From: Ruminiclostridium papyrosolvens DSM 2782
Lineage (GTDB): Bacteria > Bacillota > Clostridia > Acetivibrionales > DSM-1351
Reading direction: 5' to 3'
Length of the DNA: 64,000 nucleotides
NCBI RefSeq assembly: GCF_029318685.1
Contig: NZ_CP119677.1
Span: 2,471,001 to 2,535,000, forward strand
The notes below the pieces were generated by a model that was given only the letters and a program-made list of their open reading frames with translations, had not been told where the DNA came from and searched no databases. Positions 41,600 to 64,000 of this stretch are shown here, one piece after another. How positions within the stretch are numbered: position 1 is the first letter of the stretch; each line of letters starts with the position of its first letter. A program made the position numbers and the translations under genes.

Positions 41600-41848
41600 T
41601 TAGACTGATTGTAATTTCTTGTAGAGCACATCCGCTAATTCTCCTATGTTGTTTGCTCCAAATAACTCCACACGAGGAATTTGTAGGGACAAAGACTCCA
41701 GTGTCATCGTTATAATCTCAGCCCGGTCCACAGAGTTTGCCCCTAGGTCCACCAATCGATCGCTGGGCTTAAATTCATAGCCTTCCAATTCTGGAATTAC
41801 CTCACAACTGTGGCATATGATAAGCTGAAAAATCTCTTCTTTTTTCAT
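41600..41848 (-). CDS. Stand-alone acyl carrier protein of the beta-branching cassette
   Basis: 82 aa, AcpK-like. Phosphopantetheine site Ser in DLGANSVDRAEIITM (about residue 39); the GANS-DRAEI wording is typical of donor ACPs of HMG-CoA synthase cassettes. Carries malonyl, which the adjacent KS-like enzyme decarboxylates to acetyl before HCS adds it to the growing chain. Last gene of the PKS operon, 163 bp after the KS gene. GGAG precedes its ATG. Confidence 0.88.
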   Translation of the reverse strand: MKKEEIFQLIICHSCEVIPELEGYEFKPSDRLVDLGANSVDRAEIITMTLESLSLQIPRVELFGANNIGELADVLYKKLQSV

Positions 41849-42011
41849 TTTGTTCTCCTTTACATATAGAGTTTATAGGCATTTGCGAATGCCCCAAACC
41901 CTCTGAATTTATTTTGTGGTCTGCAAGTCCGTGGACTTATACCAATCGCTTGTTACCTAAAAGATGATTTTTACTTTAATGGATTCAATAACGCCTCTCT
42001 CTTTTCTAGTA

Positions 42012-43247
42012 TTATACTCTTTTCAAACAAATTGAAGTGTTGATTCCACCAAACCCCATACTTAAGCTTAATGCATTTTCAATTGCGTGCAAAACTGATT
42101 GACCCTGTACCCAGTTGAACAAGGGGTGTATAGGTTCTTGCAGGTTTCTTGAAGGGTGAAGCCGTGTCTCTTTCATTTGTAAAAGAGTTGCAATGACTTC
42201 CACAGTCCCTGCCGCACTCAAACCATGGCCGGTAATCGACTTGGTCGCATTGATATAGGCGTGTGAGAGCGCGCAATCACGAATTGCCTTTAATTCTATC
42301 TCATCTCCAATCACCGACCCTGTCCCGTGGGGATTGATATAATCAATATCTTTAGCTGATAGTTGTGCATGTTCCAATGCTTTTTTAATTACCTGCACCT
42401 CTCCTTCATATGAAGGATTTGGATTCCGGTTTTTATCCATCCCCACGGCCCAGCCTGATATTTTTGCGTAGGGACTCACATGGCGCCTCATGGCAGAATC
42501 GGCTCGTTCTATCACAACCGCACCGCAAGACTCTCCGTAAATAAACCCGTCCCGATTCTTGTCAAAGGGACGGCAAGCATTTGCAGGTTCATTGGCATAT
42601 CGATCAGTCCCCATTGCTCCTAAAGCTCGCAGTGCCTGGCATTCCCAGTATGAGAGGTCCATTAGGGCTCCTAAAGCTATGCAGATATCAATCTGACCCG
42701 TCTGTAGCGCTTGAGCCGCCTGAATAATTGCCATTTGGCCACTGGCGGAAGCGCCTCCCACAGTATACGCGAATCCCTGAATTCCAAATTGCTCTGTACA
42801 GATACCGCATAAATCGGTATCCATAAAATATATTCCGTAGGCTGGCCGTATAAATTGAGTTCGTTCTGCATAAGTCTCATAAGTTTTGACTAATGTTCGC
42901 TGCTGAAGGTTGGAGCCGCCAATCACCAGCCCGATGCGACCAGGATCAATGTCATCCAGCTTCGCTTCTTCCCAAGCTTCATTGAGAGTATTCATGGCCA
43001 CCTGTCCGCAAAAAGATGCTGTACGTAATAATTGTTTTGAAAGACGGTCAGAAAAGACTAATGAAGGAATCTCTGCACCCAAAAATGAGGTTCCTTTCTG
43101 CCTGCCAGGACGCTGCATCACTCCAAAAGCATGCTGTCCTTGCATCAATGCCGAGACGAAGGCGGTTTTCCCTTGCCCAATGGCCGAAGTGATACCTATA
43201 CCCGTTATGAGCAGTTCCGGTTGATTGTAATTTCTCATAGAGCACAT
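42012..43247 (-). CDS. KS-like malonyl-ACP decarboxylase of the beta-branching cassette
   Basis: 411 aa from ATG 43247 (AAGGAG 7 bp upstream; the longer frame upstream lacks a ribosome site). FabF-like fold with DYINPHGTGSVIGDEIE and TKSITGHGLSAAG (both histidines kept). The nucleophile motif reads VGGASASGQMA, with Ser where condensing enzymes have Cys. The Cys-to-Ser change is the mark of PksF/CurC-type decarboxylases, which turn malonyl-ACP into acetyl-ACP and do not condense. Works with the small ACP, HCS, ECH1 and ECH2. Confidence 0.9.
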   Translation of the reverse strand: MCSMRNYNQPELLITGIGITSAIGQGKTAFVSALMQGQHAFGVMQRPGRQKGTSFLGAEIPSLVFSDRLSKQLLRTASFCGQVAMNTLNEAWEEAKLDDIDPGRIGLVIGGSNLQQRTLVKTYETYAERTQFIRPAYGIYFMDTDLCGICTEQFGIQGFAYTVGGASASGQMAIIQAAQALQTGQIDICIALGALMDLSYWECQALRALGAMGTDRYANEPANACRPFDKNRDGFIYGESCGAVVIERADSAMRRHVSPYAKISGWAVGMDKNRNPNPSYEGEVQVIKKALEHAQLSAKDIDYINPHGTGSVIGDEIELKAIRDCALSHAYINATKSITGHGLSAAGTVEVIATLLQMKETRLHPSRNLQEPIHPLFNWVQGQSVLHAIENALSLSMGFGGINTSICLKRV

Positions 43248-43269
43248 TCTCCTGCTCCTTTCTAATTTT

Positions 43270-46200
43270 TTATTTCCCTGAATATAATTTTTCGCACAAG
43301 TCAAGTATTACTCCAAGTGGTTTGGAATCCATCAAGAGCGTCATATGATTGGAAGAATCCACATCCATCATATGAAGATTAGGAAACTGCTGCTTCCATT
43401 CCTCCCAGTAATTAACATGATCCAGTGTGTAATCATCGTCTTCGATTGAATAGTAGGGTTCCAATTCTCCCAAAAGCAATCCACTCTTATTGCGAAAATA
43501 ATAACAAGTTACCGATTTGGAATCAGGTAATGCTAAAATGCGAAAACGACTCGCTTCGTAAGCATCTTGAATTTTTTTATTTTGCTGAACCTTATCATAT
43601 AACTGAGCTTCTGTATTGTCTAATCCACGTGACCTGGCAAGCATAATTACCTGCTTAAAAAACTCTTCATCATCTACATTTGGGTTTACTTCATCCTTAT
43701 GAATCAATACTTGGGCAATTTTTTCCGGTTCTTCTAAATTCGCAGAAACCAACGCTGTGTTAACTGCTTGTAAAATCATAGTTTTTTCACATAAATTTAT
43801 TTTTTTGAGTCCGGTACTATCTATTGAATCCAACATTACAATCGTATGGACCATTTGTCCCAGCTCTTGCAACTGACGCGTGACTTCATATGCCAAATTC
43901 CCACCTAAAGAATATCCACCTAAATCGTAAGGTCCCTCCGGTTGAACAGACTGGATAATATGAACATAGTAAGAGGCCATGGCCTGAATTCCATATAAAG
44001 GAGACCGGTTGGCAATCCCCCCTCGCGCTTGAATACCATAAAAAGGCCGTTGAATCTTGTGAGCAATTGTATGATATATTTCCACTCCGCCCAAGCCTCC
44101 ATGAAACCAAAATACGGCTCGTCCTTCAGTACTCTGATTGAGATGAATAAGCTCGGGAAATTGAGGCCAGGTGGCGGGAGCTGAATTCCTGGCTTGTTGT
44201 CCCGACGACATACGTTTGTCTAAATTCTGTGTCGGTAAGATATTTATAATATCTTGCGTTGTTTTACATTCCCGCAATTTTTCAAAAGTGATTGACGAAT
44301 CTACCTGAGATTTCAATTGTTGGAAAATTGACATGAAAACAATTGAATCAATACCATACTTATCCAATGATGCATTTGTGTTAAATTCGTTAACTGTCAA
44401 TCCCAGCAAACGGGTTATAATAACAATTACCCGGTCTGGCAGTGAGGCATGTAATTCGGCAGCGCTGGTGCTATTATACAATGACATATCAGATTCTATA
44501 TTCAATCCAGATTCCATCGAAGACTGAATCCAACAGCGCCGTTTCTCAAAAGGATAGGTTGGCAAGGGAATCTTGAGGACTTGTTGTCCCTCATAAAGTG
44601 ATTCCAGTGGAAAATAACCTCCCTGAGTCCAATAGAGGGCGATTTTCTCCAGGTCTTTTTCTTCCAACAGCTTTTGAACCAGTGTCTCCCCTAATTTACC
44701 GGAAAACAGGCCCCTAATTTTCGAGTTCTCTTCCATATCTCCTGTAAAAGTTGGTATGCAAGCTTCTTTCTCTTTGTCAAGATACCCCTTCATACCCTGG
44801 ATCAACTCTTCGCGGCTGCTGACTACCATTGCCAAACGGGACTCCATCGCTTCTCGCCCTGCCAAGAGCGTATAAGCAATATCCAATATAGAAATATCCT
44901 TTCGAAGTTCCAAAAAGTCAAGCATTTGTTGGATTACTGACACTAATTGATTTTGGTTTTTAGCAGAAAACACTACCATCTGGGGTAAGCTTGCAGAATA
45001 ATGGATATTATTCACCCCTTTTTGAGCAGGGATGTATTCTTCGATAATCAAATGTGCATTTGATCCTCCTGCCCCAAACGAACTAATAGCTGTGCGCAGA
45101 GGAAACTCACATTTTTCTCCATCAACCTCTACCACAGGCCGTTTCCATTCTTGAAGTTCTTGTTGCAAGTAAAAAGGGGTATTTTGAAAGCATATATTGG
45201 AATTCAGAGGTTCTGCTTTTATTGATGGAACCAGTTGTTTGTGTTGTAATTGTAAAATAACTTTAGTAAGCTGGGAGATTCCCGAAGCCGCTTCAGCATG
45301 CCCAATATTGGATTTTACTGACCCAATTGCACAAAACTGCCGATCACACGTGAATTTCTGAAAGGCTTTATTCAATGCTGCAATTTCAATTGGATCTCCC
45401 AAAGCAGATCCATTGGCGGCCGCTTCAACATAACTGATAGTCCGAGGGTCAATCCCGGATTTTATAAAATTGTTTTCGATTAACTGTGCTTGTGCATTAG
45501 GATTGGGTACATTGAATCCACTGGCGTGCCCCCCATGATTAGTTGCTGTCGATTTAATAACTGCAAGAATGGAATCCCCGTCATTGATTGCTTTAGTGAG
45601 TGGTTTTAATAAAACCGCACCAACACCTTCTGCAGGAAGAAATCCATCCCCGTCTCCAAAGCTTCTGCTGTTATAATGGGAACCAATCATTTGAGTCAGG
45701 CTTAGTCCCAGGTATTTTTTCGGATGGATTGAGAGATTTACCCCTCCTGCGATTGCCAGCTTACAATCTCCATTCGTCAAGCTTTCGCAAGCCATATGAA
45801 TTGCAATGGCAGAAGAAGAACAAGCAGTATCAATAGCTATACTGGGTCCCTGAAGATTAAAAAAGTAAGAAACTCGATTCGCAATAGTGCTATAGGAAGA
45901 TAAAGAAATGGCTGATTCTCTAATAATATCTGTTTTTAAAAAATGATATTGCTGATACATTGCGCCGACATAAACCCCAACGCTGGATTGATATTGGCGT
46001 TGCAAAGCTTCTCGTGTATATCCTGCATTTTCAAGCAAATTCCAAACAGTTTCCAAAAAGAGTCGATCCATAGGATCCATTATTTCTGCTTCCCGCGGTG
46101 AGATATTGAAGAACAGCGGATCAAAATTATCCACATCATCTAAAAAGCCTCCCCACCTGCAGTAAGTCTTTCCCGCTCTGCTCTTATCCTCATCGAAATA

Positions 46201-47589
46201 TAGGCTATGATCCCAGCGGTCTTCAGGAATTTCGGCAATACAATCCCTGCCCTCTTTTAGGGTGCTCCATAGCTCCTGGATGTTTCTTGCCCCAGGGTAA
46301 CGTCCAGAGAGACCGATTATAGCGATGTCCCGAGATTCTGTTCCCTTTTGTTTTAATAACAGGCTTTCTTCCGTATACACTGACTTGTTGTCTGTTTTTT
46401 TAACAGGTTCATAATGAGAACAGCCGCTTTCTTCGACCTTTGTTTTTATTGAATCGATTAACTCTCTTATATTATTGTTTTCAAACAATAATATGGGGCT
46501 TAAGGATAGGTTAAAAGAGTTTTCAATTTCTTTCACTATAGACAATAACTGAGATGATTCCAGACCGATTTCAAAGAAGTTTCTATTTATGTCAATCTGT
46601 GAAGCTGCCTGATTGATGTAGCTTGAAAAGATTTTTCGCAAAATGGCTTCCATATGCTTTGATGCTGTCTCAATTTGGTGTTGAGGAGATATTTCAGGTA
46701 AAACAGGATTTTCTTGAATATTGTACGAAACACTTTCCGTTTTGACTACCGGTTTGATTTGTTCTCTAAACCGTATCTTTTTTCCAGTTATCCCCTTTAA
46801 CTGTGCAACTTGTTTTCCGGCTGTGGTAAAAAATGATATATCCATTGTGCGAACATCGTTAACCTTATTAAGTGATTCTGATCTCACCACAGCATAGCAA
46901 CGGGTATCCAAAGGTTCTATGCAAGAGAACGATTCATAATATAACGGTATGTAAAGATCTTCATTATTCCCGGTATTGGTGTTGTTTTCAATGGCACCCG
47001 CTGCAATTGCAGCACCATCTATAAGAGCTGGATGGAAAAGGACTTTTTTACCTTTATCATGGCAAGCATCATCCACATTTACTTCAACCAAACAAATGGG
47101 GCCTGCCAGATAGACATTTCCTTTAGCCTTGATCATCCCCTGATGAACCAAGCCTAGTTTCCTCGCTTCTTCATACAAAACGTCTAAATTCAAACGTCGC
47201 CTGACTGCTTCTTTCATAGCTTCAATATCTATTTGTTCCTCAAAACATATTTTTTCTTCATAAAATTTAGCCGTGATATACAGCTTTTCCGGCAATGATT
47301 TACCATGACTATCTGTTTCCGTACCTTGTACGGTGATATTCCAATAATCAGATACCTTGTTAAACAAGATTTCAAGCCTTACCGGCCGGTCTTTTTCCAC
47401 AATCAATGGATTGTAAATAGTCAAATGCTTCAAACTATGCTTGTCATAATCCATTCCCAAGCCATCTTGTGCTAATTGATACAGCATATCAATATAGGCC
47501 AATCCCGGCAGTAAATTTTGTTCAAAAACCATATGGTTTTTGATTATCGGATGCTCTATGGTTAAAGTCAAGTTATACTTCTTTTTCAT
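43270..47589 (-). CDS. Trans-AT polyketide synthase P3: DH-ACP-KS0-ACP-TE
   Basis: 1439 aa, terminal synthase. Dehydratase at about 1-280 with catalytic His in NHMVFEQNLLPG (the usual Gly of HxxxGxxxxP is Glu) and Asp in FHPALIDGA. ACP about 310-385 (IGLESSQLLS). Ketosynthase about 422-850 with Cys in DTACSSSAIA, but VEAAANGSALGDPIE replaces VEAHGTGT, so the first catalytic His is Ala: a non-elongating KS0. ACP about 1030-1105 (YGIDSIVFMS). Thioesterase about 1150-1439 with GYSLGGNLAYE. No AT. Begins with DH because its module's KS sits on P2, whose stop it overlaps by 17 bp. Releases the finished chain as acid or lactone. Confidence 0.93.
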   Translation of the reverse strand: MKKKYNLTLTIEHPIIKNHMVFEQNLLPGLAYIDMLYQLAQDGLGMDYDKHSLKHLTIYNPLIVEKDRPVRLEILFNKVSDYWNITVQGTETDSHGKSLPEKLYITAKFYEEKICFEEQIDIEAMKEAVRRRLNLDVLYEEARKLGLVHQGMIKAKGNVYLAGPICLVEVNVDDACHDKGKKVLFHPALIDGAAIAAGAIENNTNTGNNEDLYIPLYYESFSCIEPLDTRCYAVVRSESLNKVNDVRTMDISFFTTAGKQVAQLKGITGKKIRFREQIKPVVKTESVSYNIQENPVLPEISPQHQIETASKHMEAILRKIFSSYINQAASQIDINRNFFEIGLESSQLLSIVKEIENSFNLSLSPILLFENNNIRELIDSIKTKVEESGCSHYEPVKKTDNKSVYTEESLLLKQKGTESRDIAIIGLSGRYPGARNIQELWSTLKEGRDCIAEIPEDRWDHSLYFDEDKSRAGKTYCRWGGFLDDVDNFDPLFFNISPREAEIMDPMDRLFLETVWNLLENAGYTREALQRQYQSSVGVYVGAMYQQYHFLKTDIIRESAISLSSYSTIANRVSYFFNLQGPSIAIDTACSSSAIAIHMACESLTNGDCKLAIAGGVNLSIHPKKYLGLSLTQMIGSHYNSRSFGDGDGFLPAEGVGAVLLKPLTKAINDGDSILAVIKSTATNHGGHASGFNVPNPNAQAQLIENNFIKSGIDPRTISYVEAAANGSALGDPIEIAALNKAFQKFTCDRQFCAIGSVKSNIGHAEAASGISQLTKVILQLQHKQLVPSIKAEPLNSNICFQNTPFYLQQELQEWKRPVVEVDGEKCEFPLRTAISSFGAGGSNAHLIIEEYIPAQKGVNNIHYSASLPQMVVFSAKNQNQLVSVIQQMLDFLELRKDISILDIAYTLLAGREAMESRLAMVVSSREELIQGMKGYLDKEKEACIPTFTGDMEENSKIRGLFSGKLGETLVQKLLEEKDLEKIALYWTQGGYFPLESLYEGQQVLKIPLPTYPFEKRRCWIQSSMESGLNIESDMSLYNSTSAAELHASLPDRVIVIITRLLGLTVNEFNTNASLDKYGIDSIVFMSIFQQLKSQVDSSITFEKLRECKTTQDIINILPTQNLDKRMSSGQQARNSAPATWPQFPELIHLNQSTEGRAVFWFHGGLGGVEIYHTIAHKIQRPFYGIQARGGIANRSPLYGIQAMASYYVHIIQSVQPEGPYDLGGYSLGGNLAYEVTRQLQELGQMVHTIVMLDSIDSTGLKKINLCEKTMILQAVNTALVSANLEEPEKIAQVLIHKDEVNPNVDDEEFFKQVIMLARSRGLDNTEAQLYDKVQQNKKIQDAYEASRFRILALPDSKSVTCYYFRNKSGLLLGELEPYYSIEDDDYTLDHVNYWEEWKQQFPNLHMMDVDSSNHMTLLMDSKPLGVILDLCEKLYSGK

Positions 47590-50500
47590 AATATTCCCCC
47601 CATATGTTTGTTATTGCCACACGGCTGTGCTTCGTGTTTTCCATATCAGAAGAAAGTTCAGGCAAAGATATGGGGAAGCGTTTTTTCACCATACCCGGGG
47701 CTTTCCTGGGGAAATATTTCTGCTGATAATTACCATCAGACACAAATTCTTCTAGAATAACATGGCAATTAGTACCTCCGTCCGGAAAAGAGTTCAGTGC
47801 AGCAATGCGTTTCTTCCCATAATCCACCGTCCAATCAATTGTTTTCCTGTTAAACTCAATACGCGATGAGGAAAAATCATAGCTGCTGAATGGGTCTAAA
47901 GTAGATAAAAATGGCGGAATCTTTTTATGATATACGCTTAACACGCAACGTATAAATCCTGCCATCCCGGCAGTCAATAGCAGATGTCCTATAATGGGTT
48001 TGACAGAGCCAATACCACATGGCTTTAATGCTTTATTTCCAAGGTTATACACATTACTCAGAGCTTTAATTTCAATGGAATCAACGATGGCAGAGCCACC
48101 CCCATTGACCTCGATATACCCTATATCCTCCAGTTGTTTTCCGCTTAATGTCAGTGCATCTCGCATCACTTGCTCCTGGGCATTAATATTGGGCGATCCG
48201 GGGCCAAGCGTTTGTCCGTCGTTATTCACTGCTATAGCCTTGATAATGCCATAGATATGGTTCCCGTCTTTGATGGCGTCGCACAGCCGCTTTATCATGA
48301 CAACCCCGGCTCCTTCCCCAAGCACTTCCCCGTTGGAACGTTTGTCAAAGATATGAAATTCGCCATTCCTGCTTAAAATATTACGAGCGGCAAAAAGGTC
48401 ATGAGCATAAGGATTGACCAGTAAGCTTACCGCACCAATCAACGCCATATCAATTCGCCTTTCCCGTAAGGAATCGCAGGCAAGCAGCATGCCGGTTATT
48501 CCGGACGAGCAGGCTGTATCCACTACCAAGCTTGGCCCTTTAAAATTAAAACATCTCGAAATATTTGCTGCCAAATAGTTTTGACCAATTCCCAGGACAG
48601 GGTTGGGAGCCCGTAAGATAGCATCTACATTAGTATTAGGCTGATAACGTCCCCCAATATAGACTCCCACCTTTTGTCCTGACAATTGTTTGTGTTCATA
48701 TCCGGCATCATAAATTGCATGCATACTTTCTTCCAAAATGATCCGTGCCTGTGGATCCATAATTGCCGCATCATTTTCATTAATATTAAAGAATTGAGGA
48801 TCAAACAGATCGATATTCTCTATCCATCCGCCATAATCCTGGCGATTATTTTTAGAGCTCCAGCGCTGTGGAGGTACAGGCTCAATCGCAGATACTCCTG
48901 TTGTCAACAACTCCCAGTATGCTTCTTTGGTAGGTGAGCCTGGCAATCGGCACGATATTCCAACTATAGCTATATCTTCTTCTGATTTTTTAGGCTCGCT
49001 TATCACTTTCGGCTGGTTTACAGAGATACGGAAATCCTCTTTAACGCACTTTTTTTCATGTCCAAGATTTTTTTGCAAGTCTTCTGCATGATTAGCCAAA
49101 AAATAATCCGTGAGCGCGGTTATGGTGCTATATTCCAGGATGAGTGAAGGATCTATTTTTTTACTGACCTTTTCTTGTAACAACTGTACAAGCTGAGCCA
49201 TAATAATGGATTCAACCCCATATTCATCAAACGGTTTCTCATCATTCAACTGATTAGCCGATAATTTTAATTCTGAACAAAAAACTTGTTTCAGCCACTG
49301 CATGGTACACGTTCGCAGGTCTGCCCGGGATTGCTGTGCCGGTGATGCCTCAGGCTTTTGTTCCGATGATCTCTGCAGCTCCAAGCCGTATTTTTGCATG
49401 CCCGGCATGATCTTCGTTTTAAGCAGGTGATCCGGCGTAAATTCACCTGGAACCACCATACAAGGAAGACTTACAATATGAGGCATCCTTTTAACCATAT
49501 CCAAAAGGGCCAATCCATCATTTATTTCAAGGGATGTAAGACCTGCCGCCTTATAAGCCGCCGTATGTACCCCTCCCGCTGCCATACCTGTTCCGCTCCA
49601 CGCCGGCCATTGAACGGACTTAAAATAATGCTTTTCTTCCCCCACTTGATTCATCGCAAAATAATCCATATAGGCATTGGCCATGGCATAATCACTTTGT
49701 CCGGTTGATAATGTCGGTACAATACTGGATATGGAGGAGAACAAAATAAAAAAGTCTAAAGGTTCTTCTTCAAGCGCTCTGTGAAGGATTACCAGTCCTT
49801 TCATCTTCGGTTCACAGACTGCCTCGAAATCTTTTATTGATTTTTTAAAGAAGGCCGGATTCCTGCTGGTTAATCCTGCACAGTGGAACACACCTGTGAT
49901 ATGGCCTAAATGTAGGTGAATATCTTGTACCATAGCCTTCATTCCATTTTCATCCGATAAGGGCGTTCTGTAATAGCGAATTCTTACTCCCCGGTTGATG
50001 AGAGATTGCATGCGTTTGAGTTTTTGTTCAATCTCAAGCTTTCCATTTCCATCCAGGATATTATTCCATTCAGAAGGTTCCGGCAAGGCTTCTCTTCCCA
50101 TGATTACAAGATTTTTAATCCCCTGGGAAACGACATGCTCCGCAATAGAAGCACCAATCCCGCGTGTTCCGCCTGTAATTAGAACAACATCATGTTCATC
50201 ATATTTTTCTGGAATACCAAGTTTATCCTGGATTACACTGTTCGTTTGTGAAATCGCCAAATAAGGTTCATATCTTTCATTTTTCCGATAACAGCATTCG
50301 GTTGGATTTACTTTATCCATATTCAAAAACTCTGTTTGGATTTGCTGTGTTAATATTATATGATTTTCAACCGAACAATCGCTGTCCATGGACATGGCCT
50401 GAATTTGTTTATACTCAGCACCTAACATTCGATACAAGCCTGCTGTACGAGCTCCCTGTATTGTTGCTGCAGCCAATTGAAAGGCATGCAATTTATACGT

Positions 50501-52915: not shown

Positions 52916-52994
52916 TATGCCCTCCTCACAAACTTCCTTTGAGCTAATATACGCAACTTTCCCAGCCACTGTGGGCAAGTTGCGTAATATATTA

Positions 52995-53744: not shown

Positions 53745-53769
53745 TGTATATCTCTCCTATCATAACTCA

Positions 53770-54534
53770 TTAATCCTCCCATGGAAATTCTCCCTTTTCT
53801 ACAAACCGAAAAATCCCCTCCAGGACGCAAGGGTCGGAAAAAAACTCTTGATTTGCAGCCACAGCTGGAGATTTGGATTGAATCAGTAAATCATTCAACC
53901 CATTCATATAGCGTTTGTATCGTAGAATAGCTGTTTTAGATAAACGTCTGAGGCATACCAAGTGTTTGCGAAGCAATGCCTCACTTTCAAAATCATAGGC
54001 ATCAACCAGACCCATTTCAAATGCCTGTTGAACTGATATCGGCCGAGTCATCAACGTCAAATAATTAGCTTTTTGAAATCCAATCCGCCGGATCAAAAAT
54101 GGCAAAACACAAGCTGGGAACAACCCGAATAATAGTTCAGATAAGCTGAGCTGTGCGGTCTGATCAGCAAGCACTATGTCGCTGGCTGCAACGAATCCTA
54201 AGCCTCCGGCATTAACCTTTCCTCTGAGATGAGAAATTGTTATGTAAGGTCCGGTTGCTAATTTCAACCACAGATCATATAAGGAGCCCGGGCTCTGTTC
54301 ACTTGGTTTTCCACTTGCTATCTGTGCATGTATTCCTTCAAAATCAACCCCAAAACAAAATACTTCGGGTAAGCCTTCCAATATCACCACAGTAATTGAT
54401 TCTTCGCATAATGCCAGAACCTGATGGCATTCCTCAATCAATATATCGTTGATCGTATTATTGGCTTTAGGACGATAAAATTGTAGGAAGCACATTCGAT
54501 CCTGAAACCGAACATTAATTGTTTTATAGCTCAT
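53770..54534 (-). CDS. Enoyl-CoA hydratase-like ECH1 (dehydratase) of the beta-branching cassette
   Basis: 254 aa, crotonase fold, PksH-like. VCFGVDFEGIHAQIASGK (after ILEGLPE) and LRGKVNAGGLGFVAASDIVL give the oxyanion hole; LSELLFGLFPACVLPFL is the PksH-type active-site wall. Dehydrates the HMG-ACP made by HCS to the methylglutaconyl form. ATG 54534 overlaps the HCS stop by one base (TAATG), so translation is coupled; the GTG at 54543 lies inside the ribosome site. Confidence 0.88.
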   Translation of the reverse strand: MSYKTINVRFQDRMCFLQFYRPKANNTINDILIEECHQVLALCEESITVVILEGLPEVFCFGVDFEGIHAQIASGKPSEQSPGSLYDLWLKLATGPYITISHLRGKVNAGGLGFVAASDIVLADQTAQLSLSELLFGLFPACVLPFLIRRIGFQKANYLTLMTRPISVQQAFEMGLVDAYDFESEALLRKHLVCLRRLSKTAILRYKRYMNGLNDLLIQSKSPAVAANQEFFSDPCVLEGIFRFVEKGEFPWED

Positions 54535-55787: not shown

Positions 55788-55807
55788 ACTCTTCCCTCAC
55801 CTTTTTT

Positions 55808-58800
55808 TCATATCGTTTCTTCATCAGAAATATATTGATTAAATATTTTTAATGCATGCTTAGCATCTAAATTTCCTTGATATACCTGTTGCAGCAATTC
55901 ATCCAAAGAACATACTTTCCCCTGTTTATTGAATTCCTTTCCCATAAATACAGCAAACTCACTGATATTTGGGTAATCATAGATTTTGCTTACCGGAATT
56001 GATGTACCGTATTTATTGTTAATTGCATTAACCCATTCCACACCTATAATCGAATCAACACCCATGGAAGTAAAGTCTTTATCAACATCGATACCGCTTC
56101 TTTTCATATACAAGGCTTCCGCCAGGCTTGTTGCAAGCTCTTCTTGTAAAGATTCCGCTGAATTGGCTATTTGGTTATGCGTTACAGGCTTTAATTCATT
56201 CTTAATTGCTGGCCATTGCAGCACATCACATGACGCTGGGGAAGGATTTTTACTCAATTCCTTTTCCAGGAAACTGGCAAACTCACAAATATTCGGATAA
56301 TCATAGATTTTGGTTGCCGGAATTGAAGTACCGTATTTCTTGTTAATTACATTAATCCATTCCACACCTATAATCGAATCAACACCCATGGAAGTAAAGT
56401 CTTTATAAACATCGATATCGCTTCTTTTCATATATAAGGCTTCTGCCAGGCTTGTTGCCAGTTGTTCCTGCAATGCTTCCAGCGATATACCCGTTTGAAT
56501 ATGCATGGCAGCTTCTGGTTTATAGTTGACTTCCGGCTGCAATGTAAAAGTCCCTGTAGGGGATAATGCCACTGACCGTTTTATTTGATCTATCGGTTTA
56601 TATGATGGGAGCTCTTCTGAAATAGACCTCAATGATATCCCGGCGGGCTTGCCCGTTTTTGCAGGTTTGTTTGGAATAGCCTGCTTTATTACCGACACGG
56701 GCTTTAAAGAATTAGGGGAAGTTGATGATTGCAATCCTTCCTTGTAGTTTAGACCTTTCGTCTGGGCACCAACGATACCTTTATCCTCGCATATATCTGT
56801 CTCCCGTATCCAGTATCGCTCTTTTGCAAAAGGATAAGTCGGCAGGCTGATGCGCTTAATCCTTTTTCCGCCGAAAAGCCCGCTCCAATCAATCTCATAG
56901 CCTTGACAATAAAAATCTGCCAAGGCAAACAGCATTTCCTGATATTTGCTCCTGTCACACTGTAACGACTTGCTTTGTTTGAGCATATCCTGGGCATACT
57001 GTTGTACCACCTTTTGGCCTTTAAAATCCTGTGGGACTTTTCCCTTGAACAGGTTCGGCAGTCTTTCCCTGCTGCCTGCCTGTTTCCATACGTATATAGC
57101 ATCGTCGTGGTCCTGAATAACGATGGCACAGCGATGGTTGAAGTGCTGACGCCCCTCAAGCCCGGTGTAGCTTATCCTCAGCAGGTCCTGTCCCTTGTTT
57201 TGCAGTACTGTAATCATGTCCTGTATTTTTTCCTGCAGGGCATCCTCGGTCTTGGCCGAAAGGACAAGAAGATAGTACGGGGGCTGCTCCTGAAATGATC
57301 CGGTGTCTTTCCCGGAATAGCTCCTGACAACCATGTGGACGTTGGTGCCGCTCATTCCAAATGCGCTCACTGCACCAGTACGGACTTTGCCATCTCTCTT
57401 TGGCCAGGGTTTGGCAGCCTTGTTGACATAGAAGGGGCTTTCTTTCCAGTTGATATAGTCATTTTCCTGTTCGCAGTGTAAGCTGGCAGGAATCGTTTCA
57501 TGGCGTAATGCCTCCACCAGGCTGATTAGACTGAGCAGTCCGGATGCCGCAAAGGTATGTCCGAAATTGGTTTTCGTTGAGGTAAGTGCACAATAGCCTT
57601 GTTTGCTTGTATAGCCTTTAAAGGCATCATACAAGGCATTGATCTCAACAGGATCACCGAGCCTGGTCCCGGTACCATGGGTTACAATGTATTCTATTTC
57701 TTCCGGGTTCACTTTGAACTGATCGTAGACCGCCTTCAGAAGGCTGGTCTGGGCAACCCCGCTTGGAGCGGTGATTCCGTTAGTTCTGCCGTCATAATTG
57801 ACAGCGTTGCCCTGGATGACGGCATAGATCGGGTCTCCGTCTGCTTCAGCCCTGGATAACCGTTTGAGTACTACTGCAGCCACCGCTTCTCCAGGGACCA
57901 GGCCGTTGGCCCGCTTGTCAAACGCAAAGCACTTGCCGTCCGCAGACAGCATACCGGCCTGGCTCATCCCTATATACGCCTGTGGTGTGAGCATCAGATT
58001 GATGCCCGCGGCAATAGCGGTATCACACTCATGGCCGCGCAGGCTCAAGCAGGCTTGATGAGCAGCCACCAAACCGGATGAACAGGCGGTATCAATCGCC
58101 ATCACGGGGCCGCTGAGATTCAGGAAGTATGCCAGGCGGGCAGCCAGAATTGCGTTGTTGTTGGATGTTACACTGGCCTTTTCTTTGACAAGCAGCTGGT
58201 AGTCTCCCTGTTCAGCACCCACAAACATTCCGATCCTGTTTGTTTTAATCTGTTTGGCTCCGTATCCGGCATCCTCCAGTGCCTTCCAGGCTTCCTGCAG
58301 CAAAAGCCGCTGCCTTGGGTCCATGACTTGCGCCTCTCTCGGTGAGATTTCGAAAAACTGTGAGTCAAACTGATCCGGATTGGATATAAATCCTCCCCAC
58401 CTGGAATTGGTTTTGCCATTTTCCTGATGAGGGTCTCCATAATATTTTTGCCAGTCCCAGCGGCTTGCAGGTATTTCTGTAATACATTCCCTGCCGTCCT
58501 TCAGGTTGTTCCATAGTCCCTCGACTGTGTCGGCTCCTGGGAACCGTCCGCTCATCCCGATGACAGCGATGGACTCCGGAACACCTTGGGGGGTACTCCC
58601 TGTGGCAAACCTGAACCTTCCGGTTCTCTGCCGGGATGAAGCTGCTGCTTGCGGGGCTCGTTGCAGAACGTCCTGCGCAGCAGCAGCCTCCCGATAAAAA
58701 TCCTGGATAGCTTGTTGATGCTCTGTAAAAAAGTATTGTGTCAGTCTTTCAATGGTGGAATGTCCAAAAAACACGGCAGGGGTAATTTCAATTCCATAAT

Positions 58801-61800
58801 GACCGTTAAGCATGGTTGCAAACCGGGCCAGGCTGATGGAATCAAAGCCAAAATCCGCAAAGTTCTCCTCTTTGTCCAGTTTCTCCCGTGGGATTTTCAG
58901 TACATTCCCGGCAATCTCTTTCAAATCCCACTCCAAACACTGCTCAAGGCTTAGCCCCTTCATCTCGGTTCGTCTTCCCTTGCCTGAAGGCTTGTATATG
59001 TCAGGGGTCTGTGCTGGGGATTGGTTCCCGGCAAGCCCTAAAAAGCGGTACACCCGGCTGGGCTGTCCCGCCAGTACCAGATGCTGTATATCGTTCTGCG
59101 CCAGTAAGCGGTCGAACATGAAAATGCCCTCTTCGGTTTCCAAAAAACGTTGTCCGCTGGATTTGAGATACATTTCAGCATTATCGCCTTCTTTAGCTCC
59201 CATTCCGCCTTCCTTCCAGAGCGGCCAGTTAATGACAACCGTCTTGCCGGGCTGCTGATTATTACGATAATGCCCATAAGCCATCAGAAAACGGTTGCCA
59301 ACGGCATAGTCGCAGGAGCCGAAATCACCCAGTATTGCTGCACTTGAAGAGAAATAACAGATAAAATCAAGGGGTTCCCGGCAAAGTAGCTCATCGAGTA
59401 CGAGCGTTCCCTTGATCTTGGGTCCCAGCACCTCTTCAAAGCTTGAAATGTCCTTGTCCAGGATGCTTCCTCCCCCTGCAAGCCCTGCCGCATGCACGAC
59501 TCCCCGTATCTCCCCGAAGCGTTCCTTCGCCTGACTCAAGCCTTCCTTCATGCGGGCCTGGTCACAAACGTCCGCCTGCAGGTACAATACCTGGCCGCCT
59601 AAGTCCTCCAGTATTTTTATCTTCATTTGTTTTTCTTCATCCATGGGGGACCGACCGGTCAGTATGAAATTTGCGTGCTGCGTTTTTGCCAGATGTCCTG
59701 CAAGCTGGAGTCCCAACCCGCCGCAGCCGCCTGTAATGAGGTAGGTTCCTCCAGGCTTCAGCAGGCTGTTTCCCGGCTGCATTTTTGTTGGACGTATCCG
59801 GCAAATATACCGCTTGCCCTCCTGGTACAGGATACTTGAGTTTTTTGGGGTCGGCATCTCTCTCCAGAGCTTCTGCAGCCAGTCCTTTATATCCGGTTCC
59901 CGGTTTTCTTCGCTCTCCTGCATGATTGCCGCAATTCGGGTATCTGGCATAACAAGCCCCAGGGAGCGCTCAAAGCCAATCCACGATTCAAGGTGACACC
60001 GTTCCAGCATGTCCTCATATTGAGCAGCCAGAAGGATGTGGCTGGGTTTTAGTTTTGAGAAGGAAATTCCCTGCAGGATATGTACGATACAGGAATAATC
60101 CCTTATATGTTTTTTGTCCTCCAAAGGCCATAGATAGAGGACGGCATCTATATTTCCATAATCCTCACGTATGCTCTTGAAGGCATCCTTATAGGTGTCC
60201 GGGTCTTTGGGTGATATGTGGTAGGCCTGTTCGGATTGTTTGCGGTAGCTGGTGCTTTGGGAGATGAAAATCACCCTGGTCTGCCCGTCAAGAGCCTGCA
60301 CTGCTTCAATTGCCGCTTGCTGCTTTTTAGAATCCGAAAGAAAACAGACCATGGCTTTAATCCTGGCTGAAGAATTGTCCGGCAATACCTGCTCCTGCCA
60401 TGTTTCTTCAAAGGTCATCAGTTCAAAGGCTTCCTGTGCTTCCTGAACCGGGTTGCTTTTTGATGCTGCATGATCCAGCTTCCGGCCGGTAAGTGTTGAA
60501 GCGGACCTCTTTTTAAAGAGGTGGGAAGTATTTTTATGCACGGCTGGAGTGCTCTCAATGTCAGGCATCCAGTAACGTTCCCGGGCAAAGGGATATGTGG
60601 GCAGGCTGATACGGCAGGGTTTGGTCTCTCCATAGAGTTTGTTCCAGTCAAATATCAAGCCTTTGACCCAGAGATCTACAAGTTTTACATGCTTCCCTTT
60701 AACGACCCAGGCCTCAATAGCTTTTTGCATATCCTCATCCGCTGTAAAAACAGCCAGGGTCTCCCTGTTGTGCTTGACCTGCCCGCGATACAAATCAGGA
60801 ATGTCATCCTGACCTTCCAGAAAGCTCTTTAATTTCTCCTCAAGTTCTTTGATACTGCCTGCAATCACAGCCAGACGCTCTTCCATACCTTCGCGTCCCA
60901 CCTGCAGCGTGTAGGCAATATCAGCCAGATCATTGTCGGAGAACCCCTGTACCTGAATTGCATTAAGGAGTCGCTCCACCTGCTCGTGAAGACGGTCTGC
61001 GTTTCTGGCGGACAGCACGACAATAGCCGGATTCCCGCGTGCAACCTGTATTTGAGGTCTTTTTAGTTTTGGAATGTATTCTTCAATCACCGCGTGGGCG
61101 TTTGATCCTCCGGCACCAAAGGCGGAGATGCCGGCAATTCTGGGGTATTCACTGGTTTCTCCATCAATCTTGATCTGTGGTCTCTTCCATTCCGCAAGCT
61201 CCTGCTGGACAATAAATGGAGTACCGGCAAAATCAATGTTGGGATTCAATTCACTGGAATGCAGGCTGGGAGCGATCTTCTGGTGTTTCATTTGCAGCAG
61301 GATTTTAGCTATCCCTGCAATTCCGGCTGCTGCTTCCAGATGGCCTATATTGGCTTTTACGGAGCCTATGGCGCAGAAGCCTGTATCCTGGGTATCCTTC
61401 CGGTATGCTCGGGTAAGCCCTGAAATTTCAATTGGGTCTCCAAGTTCTGTCCCGGTACCATGAGCCTCAATGTAGCTGATTGTTCTGGCATCCACCCCTG
61501 CTTTCTCGAGTGCTGTACGAATAAGCTCTCCCTGAGCGGTTGGATTGGGAACCGTGTATCCATTGGTCTTGCCACCGTGGTTAATACTGGTCCCCCGTAT
61601 GATGGCATAAATGTGATCCTCATCTGCCACCGCCTGAGACAAGCGTTTTAACAAAACACATCCTACCCCTTCGCCTGGTACAAACCCGTTGCCCCCCCTT
61701 CCAAAGCTCTTGCACTTTCCGTCTGCAGACAGCATATTCTGCGCACAAAGTCCGATATAGCTTGCAGGATGAAGATATAGATTTACCCCGCCTGCAATAG

Positions 61801-64000
61801 CCATTTCACATTCTCCATTATGGATATGCTCACAGGCTTCATGGATTGCGACCAATGAGGAGGAACACATCGTATCAATGGGCATACTGGGACCTTGCAG
61901 GTTTAGCAGGTAGGAAACCCTATTGGCCACCGAGCTGAAGGAAGTGTAGGGAAAAATGTTTTCACCCTGCTTCCATAAATCAGGGCCATATAAATCAAAT
62001 CCTGTTCTGGTGATTCCTGCAAAGACACCGATCCTCTGATTATACTTCGTTGCAAGCTGCTCCTTGGTGTATCCCGCATCCTCAAGCACTCCCCAGCATG
62101 ACTCAATAAACAATCGTTCCTGCGGGTCCATATTGATCGCTTCGCGGGGCGAGATATTGAAGAAAAGTGGGTCAAAGTCTGCAAATCCCTCTATAAAACC
62201 TCCCCATTTGCTGTAACTTTTACCTTGAGGTATAGCTCCTTTGGAATTCGGATAATAGAATCCCTCCAGCGGCCAACGCTCTTCAGGTATTTCAGTGATA
62301 CAGTCTTTGCCCGATTCTAAATTTCTCCAATACTCTTGTATATTTTTTGCCTGTGGATAACGCCCACTAAGGCCTATGATGGCAATGGGTTCCATGACTC
62401 TATTGGCTGGAGCCATAACAGTAAAACTGCGTTCCTGTTTTTTTTCTGCTTTGAATGAAGCTAGTTTACGAAATACACCTTTGACAGGTAGCGTTGTTGA
62501 GGATACTTCAGGAATTAGCTGCACCTCATCTTCGATCCCTGTCCACCGCATACATTTTTGGGGGTAATCTGTCACCAAATATTCTACCAGAGCTCCCATG
62601 GTCTGGTATTCATAGAATAAGGTTTTTGACAATCCTCCAAAAATATCTGCAAGCTTATAATTGAGTTGGGTAATCACAATTGAATCAATTCCGTAATTTT
62701 CCATGGACTCGTCGGGGTCTATCTTGGCAACACTCAGCTTGATGACTTCTCCGAATAGAGCTTTGAATTGGTGCAGAGTTTTTTCGCGCAGCAGACCCGG
62801 ATCTATTTGATGAATTTTATTGGTTGTTTCAAAAGCTTCCTGCTCGAATCGTTTTACAAACACATTCTTATATTCTGCAATCAGGTATTCTGCAAGACTG
62901 TGGATAGTCCGTTGTTCAAAAAGTACAGCGGGGGTAAGTTCAAGGCTATATTTCCTGTTAATTTCATGGGCCAGCTCCGCCAGCTTGACATTGTCGAACC
63001 CATACTCGCTCAGCTCGGCATCCGCATCAATATCCTGAACCTTGACCTTGAGCAATATGGAAACGGTCAGCTCAACGTCAGACTGCAGCTTAATGAGCAA
63101 GCTGCCTGTATTGATTTCTGTGGTAGAATCAGATCCAGCAGGAGTTTTTTGAGGTCGTGCAGCAGCAGGAACCGCAATCAGCAGCTTCTGCTTCATTTGT
63201 GCTGCATTGCCTTCCATCACTGCCATCTGAACCTGTCCCGAGCCAATGCCCCGGTACAGGGCACGGATGCCGCTCCCTGTCTCCATGGCGACCATGCCCA
63301 TGCTTTGCCTCATCATCCTCTTTGTCTCTTCATCGACGCGCATCCCGCCCTCTTTCCATAACGGCCAGTTTAGCGACAATGTACGACCGCAGCGTTGCTC
63401 CGAAACCTTCAATTCATTCCGGTAGCCGGCATACGCATCCATGAAGGCATTGGCTGCCGCGTAGTCGGCCTGACCAGCGTTGCCTATGACTCCGGCTAAC
63501 GAAGAAAAGAGGATGAAGAAGTCGAGGCTCTGGTCTTTGCTTGCCTCATCCAGGTTCACCGCTCCCAAAACCTTGGGGGCCAGAACCGACATGAGCTCCT
63601 CTTTGGTTTTCTTTATGATGAAATTGTCCTTGATCACTCCGGCGGCATGAATGATGCCGTTGAGGCTGCCGAATTCATTTCTGATGCTTTGGATCAGGTC
63701 GGTAACAGCCTGTCTGTCGCTCACATCGACTTGCCTGTATGCGATGCGGGCACCCAGAGCCTCCAGTTCTTCAAGCCTGGCCTGCCTGTCTTCGCCCAGC
63801 GGAGTGCGACCGGCAAGGATTAGAGCAACACCCTTGGCTTTCTTGGCAATCTCTTTAGCAAATATGAGTCCCAGTCCACCGGCTCCTCCCGTAATCAAAT
63901 AGACTCCCCCGGCTTTCCATGGAACGGTCTCTTCTTCCTCTGAAGCTTCAACTTCATTCCACCCGGCAACCAGACGTTTACCGGACTGATACCGGATTTG
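55808..64000 (-). CDS. Trans-AT polyketide synthase P1 (5' end outside window): KR-ACP*-ACP / KS-KR-ACP / KS-ACP-ACP
   Basis: About 2730 visible residues, open through the right edge. In order: KR (TGGAGGLG; Tyr in ADYAAANAF). ACP with YGFDNVKLAE, lacking the phosphopantetheine Ser (Asn, codon at 62990-62992). Active ACP (YGIDSIVITQ). KS with DTMCSSS and EAHGTGTELGDP. KR (TGGCGGLG; CDYAVGNRF). ACP (FGFDSISLA). KS with DTACSSGLVA and THGTGTRLGDP. A long Pro/Ser/Lys linker, then twin ACPs with MGVDSIIGVEW, whose Trp marks beta-branching ACPs. C-terminal helical docking tail (SLDELLQQVYQGNLDAKHAL). No AT. KR1 has the Asp (VIKDN) of B-type reductases; KR2 lacks it. Confidence 0.95.
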   Translation of the reverse strand, partial: QIRYQSGKRLVAGWNEVEASEEEETVPWKAGGVYLITGGAGGLGLIFAKEIAKKAKGVALILAGRTPLGEDRQARLEELEALGARIAYRQVDVSDRQAVTDLIQSIRNEFGSLNGIIHAAGVIKDNFIIKKTKEELMSVLAPKVLGAVNLDEASKDQSLDFFILFSSLAGVIGNAGQADYAAANAFMDAYAGYRNELKVSEQRCGRTLSLNWPLWKEGGMRVDEETKRMMRQSMGMVAMETGSGIRALYRGIGSGQVQMAVMEGNAAQMKQKLLIAVPAAARPQKTPAGSDSTTEINTGSLLIKLQSDVELTVSILLKVKVQDIDADAELSEYGFDNVKLAELAHEINRKYSLELTPAVLFEQRTIHSLAEYLIAEYKNVFVKRFEQEAFETTNKIHQIDPGLLREKTLHQFKALFGEVIKLSVAKIDPDESMENYGIDSIVITQLNYKLADIFGGLSKTLFYEYQTMGALVEYLVTDYPQKCMRWTGIEDEVQLIPEVSSTTLPVKGVFRKLASFKAEKKQERSFTVMAPANRVMEPIAIIGLSGRYPQAKNIQEYWRNLESGKDCITEIPEERWPLEGFYYPNSKGAIPQGKSYSKWGGFIEGFADFDPLFFNISPREAINMDPQERLFIESCWGVLEDAGYTKEQLATKYNQRIGVFAGITRTGFDLYGPDLWKQGENIFPYTSFSSVANRVSYLLNLQGPSMPIDTMCSSSLVAIHEACEHIHNGECEMAIAGGVNLYLHPASYIGLCAQNMLSADGKCKSFGRGGNGFVPGEGVGCVLLKRLSQAVADEDHIYAIIRGTSINHGGKTNGYTVPNPTAQGELIRTALEKAGVDARTISYIEAHGTGTELGDPIEISGLTRAYRKDTQDTGFCAIGSVKANIGHLEAAAGIAGIAKILLQMKHQKIAPSLHSSELNPNIDFAGTPFIVQQELAEWKRPQIKIDGETSEYPRIAGISAFGAGGSNAHAVIEEYIPKLKRPQIQVARGNPAIVVLSARNADRLHEQVERLLNAIQVQGFSDNDLADIAYTLQVGREGMEERLAVIAGSIKELEEKLKSFLEGQDDIPDLYRGQVKHNRETLAVFTADEDMQKAIEAWVVKGKHVKLVDLWVKGLIFDWNKLYGETKPCRISLPTYPFARERYWMPDIESTPAVHKNTSHLFKKRSASTLTGRKLDHAASKSNPVQEAQEAFELMTFEETWQEQVLPDNSSARIKAMVCFLSDSKKQQAAIEAVQALDGQTRVIFISQSTSYRKQSEQAYHISPKDPDTYKDAFKSIREDYGNIDAVLYLWPLEDKKHIRDYSCIVHILQGISFSKLKPSHILLAAQYEDMLERCHLESWIGFERSLGLVMPDTRIAAIMQESEENREPDIKDWLQKLWREMPTPKNSSILYQEGKRYICRIRPTKMQPGNSLLKPGGTYLITGGCGGLGLQLAGHLAKTQHANFILTGRSPMDEEKQMKIKILEDLGGQVLYLQADVCDQARMKEGLSQAKERFGEIRGVVHAAGLAGGGSILDKDISSFEEVLGPKIKGTLVLDELLCREPLDFICYFSSSAAILGDFGSCDYAVGNRFLMAYGHYRNNQQPGKTVVINWPLWKEGGMGAKEGDNAEMYLKSSGQRFLETEEGIFMFDRLLAQNDIQHLVLAGQPSRVYRFLGLAGNQSPAQTPDIYKPSGKGRRTEMKGLSLEQCLEWDLKEIAGNVLKIPREKLDKEENFADFGFDSISLARFATMLNGHYGIEITPAVFFGHSTIERLTQYFFTEHQQAIQDFYREAAAAQDVLQRAPQAAASSRQRTGRFRFATGSTPQGVPESIAVIGMSGRFPGADTVEGLWNNLKDGRECITEIPASRWDWQKYYGDPHQENGKTNSRWGGFISNPDQFDSQFFEISPREAQVMDPRQRLLLQEAWKALEDAGYGAKQIKTNRIGMFVGAEQGDYQLLVKEKASVTSNNNAILAARLAYFLNLSGPVMAIDTACSSGLVAAHQACLSLRGHECDTAIAAGINLMLTPQAYIGMSQAGMLSADGKCFAFDKRANGLVPGEAVAAVVLKRLSRAEADGDPIYAVIQGNAVNYDGRTNGITAPSGVAQTSLLKAVYDQFKVNPEEIEYIVTHGTGTRLGDPVEINALYDAFKGYTSKQGYCALTSTKTNFGHTFAASGLLSLISLVEALRHETIPASLHCEQENDYINWKESPFYVNKAAKPWPKRDGKVRTGAVSAFGMSGTNVHMVVRSYSGKDTGSFQEQPPYYLLVLSAKTEDALQEKIQDMITVLQNKGQDLLRISYTGLEGRQHFNHRCAIVIQDHDDAIYVWKQAGSRERLPNLFKGKVPQDFKGQKVVQQYAQDMLKQSKSLQCDRSKYQEMLFALADFYCQGYEIDWSGLFGGKRIKRISLPTYPFAKERYWIRETDICEDKGIVGAQTKGLNYKEGLQSSTSPNSLKPVSVIKQAIPNKPAKTGKPAGISLRSISEELPSYKPIDQIKRSVALSPTGTFTLQPEVNYKPEAAMHIQTGISLEALQEQLATSLAEALYMKRSDIDVYKDFTSMGVDSIIGVEWINVINKKYGTSIPATKIYDYPNICEFASFLEKELSKNPSPASCDVLQWPAIKNELKPVTHNQIANSAESLQEELATSLAEALYMKRSGIDVDKDFTSMGVDSIIGVEWVNAINNKYGTSIPVSKIYDYPNISEFAVFMGKEFNKQGKVCSLDELLQQVYQGNLDAKHALKIFNQYISDEETI
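55930..56490 (-). repeat. Tandem duplicated ACP-coding repeat, period 324 bp
   Basis: The two C-terminal ACP domains of P1 are near-identical in protein (ALYMKRS-IDV-KDFTSMGVD shared) and DNA. For example the words from CACCTATAATCG onward start at 56041 and again at 56365. Differences are scattered single bases and a divergent linker. A recent in-frame duplication. Confidence 0.9.

Follow-up and report, generated by a model that had tools for sequence, protein, structure and literature searches.

A trans-acyltransferase polyketide synthase line of Ruminiclostridium papyrosolvens DSM 2782 with a beta-branching cassette and a putative ester-masked malonyl start

Introduction

The stretch of Ruminiclostridium (Clostridium) papyrosolvens DSM 2782 DNA analyzed here raises the question of how a polyketide synthase (PKS) line with a beta-branching cassette starts, extends and releases its chain. 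The stretch, hereafter the window (64,000 bases, G000:C1:2471001-2535000, where G000:C1 is this genome's single contig of 5,027,861 bases), holds the last 22 kb of a trans-acyltransferase (trans-AT) PKS cluster of approximately 76 kb on the minus strand (approximately G000:C1:2512600-2588442). In the reading that we favor, with a probability of roughly 0.8, this is a complete trans-AT line that would start from malonyl masked as a methyl ester, introduce a beta-branch at module 13 (M13), release the chain through a thioesterase (TE) and have it unmasked by an esterase. Published work is cited by PMC number.

Extent and gene order of the cluster

Sixteen genes were assigned to the cluster, from its 3' end at 2512600 (the donor acyl carrier protein, ACP) to a right limit near window coordinate 117442 (G000:C1:2588442), beyond the window end. 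Read 5' to 3', genes for a metallo-beta-lactamase-fold protein, an acyltransferase-enoyl reductase (AT-ER), an alpha/beta hydrolase and a methyltransferase precede PKS1 to PKS5, followed by the cassette and the last two PKS genes; the order of the 3' half is PKS5, HCS, ECH1, ECH2, PKS6, PKS7, a ketosynthase (KS) with a Cys-to-Ser change, and donor ACP. The seven PKS genes (1439-5503 aa) are uninterrupted from start to stop, PKS5 starting 1476 bases outside the window, at window coordinate 65476. Ketoreductase, dehydratase and methyltransferase domains are given below as KR, DH and MT.

G000:C1:2587732-2588442, minus strand: metallo-beta-lactamase-fold protein
G000:C1:2584903-2587179, minus strand: AT-ER, 758 aa
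G000:C1:2584043-2584837, minus strand: alpha/beta hydrolase (putative esterase), GHSMG
G000:C1:2583214-2584056, minus strand: methyltransferase
G000:C1:2578529-2583190, minus strand: PKS1
G000:C1:2562287-2578480, minus strand: PKS2
G000:C1:2552996-2562283, minus strand: PKS3
G000:C1:2536473-2552984, minus strand: PKS4
G000:C1:2526808-2536476 (window 55808..64000, on to 65476), minus strand: PKS5, 3222 aa; DH-KR-ACP-ACP (rest of M11), KS-KR-ACP (M12), KS-ACP-ACP (M13)
window 47573..53005, minus strand: PKS6, 1810 aa; KS-KR-ACP (M14), KS (M15)
window 43270..47589, minus strand: PKS7, 1439 aa; DH-ACP (M15), KS-ACP-TE (M16)

Family PF00698 had 15 matches genome-wide and a single one in the cluster (G000:C1:2586331-2587173, outside the window); since the latter sits in a separate protein, the modules are without an AT of their own. 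The AT-ER protein scored above both cut-offs (362 bits on FabD, cut-off 261; 702 bits on PfaD, cut-off 449). The weakest of the 17 ketoacyl-synthase matches in the cluster had an E value of 8.4e-33, so that chance is of no concern.

A sequence-only reading of the window had described modular PKS proteins lacking internal ATs, together with HCS, ECH1, ECH2, the Cys-to-Ser KS and a donor ACP, as overlapping genes on one strand of a cellulolytic background. All of these were located at 41600-64000 on the minus strand, and neither the absence of ATs from the modules nor the cellulolytic background (GH9, CBM3 and dockerin domains at window 29002-34212) needed revision. Overlap was found at four of the seven gene junctions within the window (10-35 bases, the 35-base value depending on an uncertain TTG start), and gaps of 20-163 bases at the other three. 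Extension to the right, from which loading modules and an AT were expected, yielded PKS1-PKS4, the N-terminal ACP and the trans-acting AT-ER protein.

The beta-branching cassette

The cassette is complete, comprising the donor ACP, the Cys-to-Ser KS, HCS, ECH1, ECH2 and tandem acceptor ACPs with the motif GxDSx5W.

window 41600..41848, minus strand: donor ACP, 82 aa (PF00550; NCBIfam NF005502 above cut-off)
window 42012..43304, minus strand: stand-alone decarboxylating KS, 430 aa from an uncertain start codon (NCBIfam NF005490, polyketide beta-ketoacyl:ACP synthase, above cut-off)
window 52995..53744, minus strand: ECH2, decarboxylase, 249 aa (PksI, 4q1k, E 3e-115)
window 53770..54543, minus strand: ECH1, dehydratase, 257 aa (PksH, 3hp0, E 1.4e-109)
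window 54534..55787, minus strand: HCS, HMG-ACP synthase, 417 aa (PksG, 4yxq, E 2.6e-218; CurD, 5kp5, E 6.3e-198)
window 55946..56464, minus strand: tandem acceptor ACPs of M13, GxDSx5W in both (M13a, M13b)

NCBIfam models were exceeded for four of these proteins (ECH1, ECH2, decarboxylating KS and donor ACP). The stand-alone KS shows GGASASG in place of TACSSS, with Ser for Cys and both His retained. GxDSx5W, described as the beta-branching acceptor motif (PMC11425284), occurs in this line in M13 only, a module without KR, and the genes for HCS, ECH1 and ECH2 lie directly 3' of that for PKS5, which ends in the tandem acceptor ACPs. Within the genus, this type of HCS (E 1e-20) was detected in two of 11 genomes, namely this one and G005, which has two copies.

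Module map and active sites

The line has 16 KS modules behind a loading ACP (M0); a double slash marks a protein boundary.

M0 ACP; M1 KS-DH-KR // MT-ACP; M2 KS-DH-KR-ACP-ACP; M3 KS-DH-KR-ACP
M4 KS-DH-ACP; M5 KS // DH-ACP; M6 KS-KR-ACP; M7 KS-DH-KR // MT-ACP
M8 KS-KR-ACP; M9 KS-MT-ACP; M10 KS-DH-KR-MT-ACP; M11 KS // DH-KR-ACP-ACP
M12 KS-KR-ACP; M13 KS-ACP-ACP; M14 KS-KR-ACP; M15 KS // DH-ACP; M16 KS-ACP-TE

In total there are 16 module KSs plus the decarboxylating KS, 10 KRs, nine DHs, four MTs and, besides the donor ACP, 20 ACPs; M8 also holds a DH scrap covering 24 of 290 profile positions. The domains within the window were as follows.

window 61256..62392, minus strand: KS of M12, 92.9% identical to the KS of M11
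window 59213..59749, minus strand: KR of M12
window 57473..58576, minus strand: KS of M13 (beta-branch module), 98.4% identical to the KS of M7
window 51632..52747, minus strand: KS of M14, grouping with KSs downstream of beta-branching modules
window 49595..50191, minus strand: KR of M14, after the beta-branch step (PF08659, E 7.1e-38)
window 47900..48979, minus strand: KS of M15, Asn for the first catalytic His, predicted non-elongating
window 46771..47589, minus strand: DH of M15, HxxxE for HxxxG, Asp retained
window 45214..46332, minus strand: KS of M16, AANGS for HGTGT, predicted non-elongating
window 43285..44142, minus strand: TE, GYSLG (PF00975, E 6.4e-29)

Active sites were judged by eye from alignments. 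The first catalytic His is replaced in the KSs of M5 (Ala), M15 (Asn) and M16 (Ala), a change taken as a sign of non-elongation for the last KS of aurantinin biosynthesis (PMC8302727); with these three KSs set aside, 13 extensions are predicted. By the same residues, the KSs of M15 and M16, the last two of the line, are predicted to be non-elongating, and M14-M15 would form a dehydrating bimodule. The block KR-ACP-KS // DH-ACP is also present in Desulfocucumis, Brevibacillus fortis and G005. The Asp of the 'LDD' position is missing from the KRs of M6, M8, M12 and M14 and kept in the other six, the DHs of M5 and M15 deviate from HxxxGxxxxP, and in ACP M11a the attachment Ser is replaced by Asn, the adjoining M11b being intact. 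The order visible in the window had been given by the sequence-only reading as ketoreduction, ketoreduction, beta-branch, a dehydrating step and TE; this order was recovered, with the KR of M14 as an omission, and the probable loss of elongation in the last two KSs had gone unseen.

In the phylogeny, KSs tracked the module upstream, with exceptions in the M4 and M11/M12 clades (the counts include this line's own KSs). The M7/M9/M13 clade followed a KR module in 9/9 cases, one of them also with DH, and the M8 clade an MT module in 7/7. All four members of the M14 clade came after a module bearing one or more GxDSx5W ACPs and all four of the M15 clade after KR-ACP, while six of the seven M4-clade KSs came after DH-KR.

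Starter system

In the aurantinin pathway, malonyl carried by an N-terminal ACP is methylated by Art28; the esterase Art9 takes the methyl off as the last step, and the freed carboxyl confers antibacterial activity (PMC8302727). Formation of malonyl-ACP methyl ester in vitro was reported for five Art28 homologues, one of them being Clp905 from C. papyrosolvens DSM 2782 (PMC8302727). In the cluster, the gene for a BioC/Art28-like O-methyltransferase is flanked by the esterase gene and PKS1, whose product has an ACP at its N-terminus (residues 15-79). This methyltransferase was the single match in the genome both at E 1e-35 and at 1e-60, and because it is the only such match it is probably Clp905. 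The methyltransferase and esterase pair resembles the aurantinin logic, in which methyl esterification of malonyl-ACP precedes extension and unmasking comes last.

The methyltransferase type is rare, being found in one of 398 genomes of the phylum sample at E 1e-35 (this genome), in 3/58 genomes of the order, this genome included, and in 7/39 genomes of the order of B. fortis, the B. fortis genome included. A scan of genome contigs gave ten loci from 103 candidate stretches, with identities of 61-76%, in Desulfocucumis, three Brevibacillus, Dictyobacter, Thermoactinomyces, Paenibacillus, an Aminicenantes metagenome-assembled genome (MAG), Gracilibacillus and Marininema. These include homologues of Thermoactinomyces daqus H-18 and a Brevibacillus formosus; homologues of T. 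daqus and B. formosus have been reported active (PMC8302727). Likeness to the Art28 type was judged via such homologues, Art28 and Art9 themselves being known from the paper's text. The esterase adjoins the methyltransferase in eight of 12 other lines (Desulfocucumis, three Brevibacillus, Dictyobacter, Paenibacillus, Marininema and G005). In Thermoactinomyces it lies elsewhere in the line, away from the methyltransferase, and none was seen in the partly covered stretches L039, L040 and G435.

The first-KS clade

A maximum-likelihood tree was built from 97 KSs, among them the first KSs (those after the loading ACP) of eight Art28-type lines. These eight formed a clade of their own that admitted no further KS (bootstrap and SH-aLRT both 100). 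A second tree, made by a quick method and without bootstrap, had 150 rows; new to it were G435, the Aminicenantes MAG (a partial KS), seven rows of Brevibacillus or its order and, as controls, 38 of the 39 KSs of PKS regions elsewhere in this genome. In this tree the 17 first KSs stood together (SH-aLRT 100) and 0/133 other KSs fell among them. The 17 rows represent ten lineages, eight rows being from Brevibacillus or its order and two of them identical. Pieces under score or length limits (uncounted) were dropped from both trees, as were three rows repeating control KSs from the larger one. The Thermoactinomyces first KS was taken from an ACP-starting PKS 24 kb from its methyltransferase gene, and L040 (Gracilibacillus), which shows no KS, stood outside the comparison.

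Two residues marked the clade when seven near-identical rows of Brevibacillus or its order were left out so that each lineage counted once. A His before the conserved Lys of GSxKxxxGH, a Lys that lies in the KS active site, was present in 9/9 first KSs (the tenth was too short) vs. 0/133 others, and an Arg located 48 residues N-terminal to the active Cys in 10/10 vs. 11/133; both residues were chosen by column scanning on the same data, with no independent set behind the counts. No clade of KSs that take malonyl methyl ester as their starter was found in the literature searched (listings and partial texts).

We lean slightly towards the joint proposition that the first KS is a dedicated gatekeeper for ester-masked malonate, belonging to a His-marked clade across ten lineages, and that the anaerobe studied here produces a new beta-branched polyene of approximately 34 carbons with a carboxyl end. 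The clade offers a sequence handle for polyketides starting from a masked carboxyl; if the gatekeeper role holds, KS sequence alone would reveal carboxyl-capped polyketide lines.

Proposed pathway and product

The AT of AT-ER would load malonyl units onto the ACPs, and the Art28-like methyltransferase, probably the Clp905 reported active in vitro (PMC8302727), would turn the malonyl on the first ACP into its methyl ester, a masked starter that KS1 may accept, as its phylogenetic position suggests. The 13 KSs with a full Cys-His-His set would elongate the chain, with alpha-methyl groups added by M1, M7, M9 and M10, double bonds arising from M1-M3, M7, M10 and M11, hydroxyls left by M6, M8 and M12, and a ketone by M9. 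At M13, the beta-keto group on the tandem ACPs would receive an acetate-derived carbon via the donor ACP, the decarboxylating KS and HCS, followed by dehydration by ECH1 and decarboxylation by ECH2, as expected from homology to PksG/H/I. M14-M15 would then set a double bond using a non-elongating KS and M16 would hand the chain on to the TE, which may release it as an acid by hydrolysis or as a ring by closure; the esterase would finally free the far carboxyl group.

Five methyl-type branches, four methionine-derived and one acetate-derived, are predicted on a backbone of 29 carbons (3 + 13 x 2), the M4-M5 step being uncertain. The start of the chain would bear a methyl ester, later a free acid, and the M1-M3 stretch would be a conjugated triene unless a trans-acting ER intervenes; the outcome of M4-M5 is not predictable. 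Having one line of 16 modules, its start and end both defined, provides a concrete structure to look for.

Alternative explanations

An ordinary acetate starter, from decarboxylated malonate, would make the methyltransferase a tailoring O-methyltransferase and the alpha/beta hydrolase an editing thioesterase. Stand-alone editing hydrolases are common in trans-AT clusters and the methyltransferase comes from a broad superfamily, yet it is close to the Art28 homologues of T. daqus H-18 and B. formosus, no GNAT family appears among the Pfam matches of PKS1, and the first KS shares a clade with those of tested Art28-type lines; together with the activity of Clp905 of the same species on malonyl-ACP (PMC8302727), this leaves an acetate start improbable. 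An aurantinin-like tetracyclic antibiotic, which would share the starter pair, the cassette and several MT modules, is less probable still. Aurantinin depends on a protein with an ECHQ-TE didomain, whose gene lies directly behind the cassette in all 23 known cases (PMC11425284), whereas here PKS6 follows ECH2, the TE is fused to PKS7 and the cluster has one AT. The art cluster has a second AT, Art2, and two adjacent beta-branches on Art11 (PMC8302727), against an acceptor motif in M13 only. An aurantinin-type product was accordingly rejected, on the missing didomain and the single beta-branch module.

That the cluster is a decaying, non-functional mosaic also seems unlikely. The lack of a KR in M4, the altered KS and DH sites, the Asn of ACP M11a, the altered KR of M7, a 4.3-kb repeat and the transposase remnants on the left flank would all suit decay, as would the finding that the tested C. 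papyrosolvens PKS genes were silent or basally expressed in culture by quantitative reverse-transcription PCR (RT-qPCR; PMC3250452). Against it stand the seven uninterrupted PKS genes, the intact neighbor of ACP M11a, and three other lines in which an M15-like KS is likewise flanked by KR-ACP and DH-ACP.

The complete, ester-masked line that we favor has its own difficulties, the low expression just mentioned being one. The methyltransferase reached 44 bits on the BioC model (cut-off 185), Art28 itself being only 19% identical to a BioC (PMC8302727); the esterase reached 24.8 bits on BioH (cut-off 207), and no close solved relative was found for it. Co-linearity breaks where the DH of M4 has no KR and the DH motif of M5 is altered, the KR of M7 has Gly for the expected catalytic Ser, and the KS of M12 groups with that of M11 in a clade mostly found after MT modules, yet M11 has no MT. 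The first-KS clade may have arisen from common descent of the start of the line, without selection by substrate. Aurantinin KS1 is regarded as non-elongating (PMC8302727), and module 1 is KS-MT-ACP in Desulfocucumis, B. fortis, Dictyobacter, Marininema and Thermoactinomyces. Finally, the product of this cluster is not named in the literature searched (listings and passages).

Cluster history and genomic setting

The cluster has a G+C content of 44.9% vs. 36-37% in its flanks. Its longest internal repeat (4308 bases, 97.8% identical) pairs window 56796..61102 (minus strand), running from behind the KS of M12 to behind the KS of M13, with G000:C1:2555286-2559592 (M6-M7), and several other module pairs share 1.8-2.6 kb at 93-96%. 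A tyrosine integrase and two transposase remnants (rve core, HTH_Tnp_1) occupy window 38568-40817, adjoining the 3' end of the cluster. The G+C contrast, the repeats and these left-flank elements would fit a cluster that was acquired from outside and has recently undergone internal duplication or gene conversion. The near-identical blocks add a fresh example of an assembly line growing through internal duplication; they may also be the reason why the draft genome broke at this place.

To the right of the cluster, an operon-like group (G000:C1:2590317-2596551) encodes a VTT-domain protein, a 322-aa protein without Pfam match, an MBOAT acyltransferase, a 76-aa ACP, an ornithine/diaminopimelate-type pyridoxal-phosphate decarboxylase and an AMP-binding ligase, which we take to resemble a dlt operon with an extra decarboxylase. 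Genome-wide, 60 of 61 ketoacyl-synthase rows had E 1e-17 or better, and other large PKS regions lie at 3.95-4.00 Mb and at 4.54-4.63 Mb; in the second of these, long PKS frames contain AT matches.

Published fragments of the cluster

Few polyketides are known from strict anaerobes, and such compounds were reported later than 2012. An abstract of that year stated that none was known, and the same paper gave the PKS genes of the species as nine separate clusters, with RT-qPCR primers for clostridial PKS genes of C. papyrosolvens DSM 2782 (PMC3250452). Its forward primers E2, G1 and B1 match exactly here and in 0/10 other genomes of the genus, which identifies the strain as DSM 2782 or one very close to it. 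The E2 pair (CpapE KS2) frames 165 bases at window 45807..45971 on the minus strand and the G1 pair 193 bases at G000:C1:2537108-2537300, the G1 forward primer having a second site within the cluster. As both pairs fall in one cluster, CpapE and CpapG, treated as separate in that paper, are parts of it; the four KSs listed for CpapE (PMC3250452) correspond to those at window 42012-53005. The words 'branch', 'HMG' and 'HCS' do not occur in the main text of PMC3250452.

This kind of system is already known and parts of the cluster are in print; what is new is the joined line, its module order, the three KSs without the first His, the first-KS clade and the recent internal duplication. The sequence-only reading anticipated neither these printed parts nor that the unusual element, a starter logic of Art28-like methyltransferase and esterase (PMC8302727), lies outside the window.

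Comparison with known systems

Six related lines were mapped with the same profiles (Dictyobacter, Marininema, B. fortis, G005_a, Thermoactinomyces and, on broken contigs, Desulfocucumis). By-eye comparison found the present module order in none of the six, in agreement with the sequence-only reading, which had been unable to match the module string to a known product. The Art28-type line of Desulfocucumis palustris (L032, L057-L060) is 76% identical to ours in the methyltransferase, 84% in the KS of M4, 78% in that of M15 and 61% in PKS2; it differs in having KS-MT-ACP as module 1, and HCS was not found in the stretches examined, its contigs being broken. The line of G005, of the same genus (C2:325661-376055), like ours has AT-ER, esterase, methyltransferase, loading ACPs, HCS (75% identical) and KS1 (79%), but differs in module order and in an ER-like domain behind its beta-branch ACPs.

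Several side observations concern these relatives. The 880-kb second contig of G005 carries two different beta-branching trans-AT lines approximately 190 kb apart (C2:325661-376055 and 510538-555501), one with an Art28-type start. A match to the AT-ER profile directly behind beta-branch ACPs was seen in four lines (Dictyobacter L046, Marininema L051, G005 L062 and L066) and is probably a PfaD-like ER domain; in one KS clade, four of five members follow such a stretch. Another Art28-type line, L074 (G435:C84:50225-70000), has the same order. Its first module carries tandem ACPs, and beta-branching genes immediately precede that for the methyltransferase, so that the first extension of this line may be beta-branched.

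The closest solved structures to HCS, ECH1 and ECH2 are PksG, PksH and PksI of Bacillus subtilis, which belong to the bacillaene pathway; the bacillaene line is a hybrid of PKS and nonribosomal peptide synthetase with a different starter. The aurantinin (art) cluster of Bacillus subtilis fmb60 (PMC8302727, PMC11425284) shares with ours a trans-AT PKS, an N-terminal loading ACP and a beta-branching cassette with GxDSx5W ACPs, and its malonyl-ACP O-methyltransferase Art28 has a counterpart here, and its esterase Art9 a putative one, as compared from the text of those papers. In contrast to the art cluster as described there, ours has no ECHQ-TE didomain, one AT, one beta-branch module and another module order, and its KS1 is intact and followed by DH-KR-MT.

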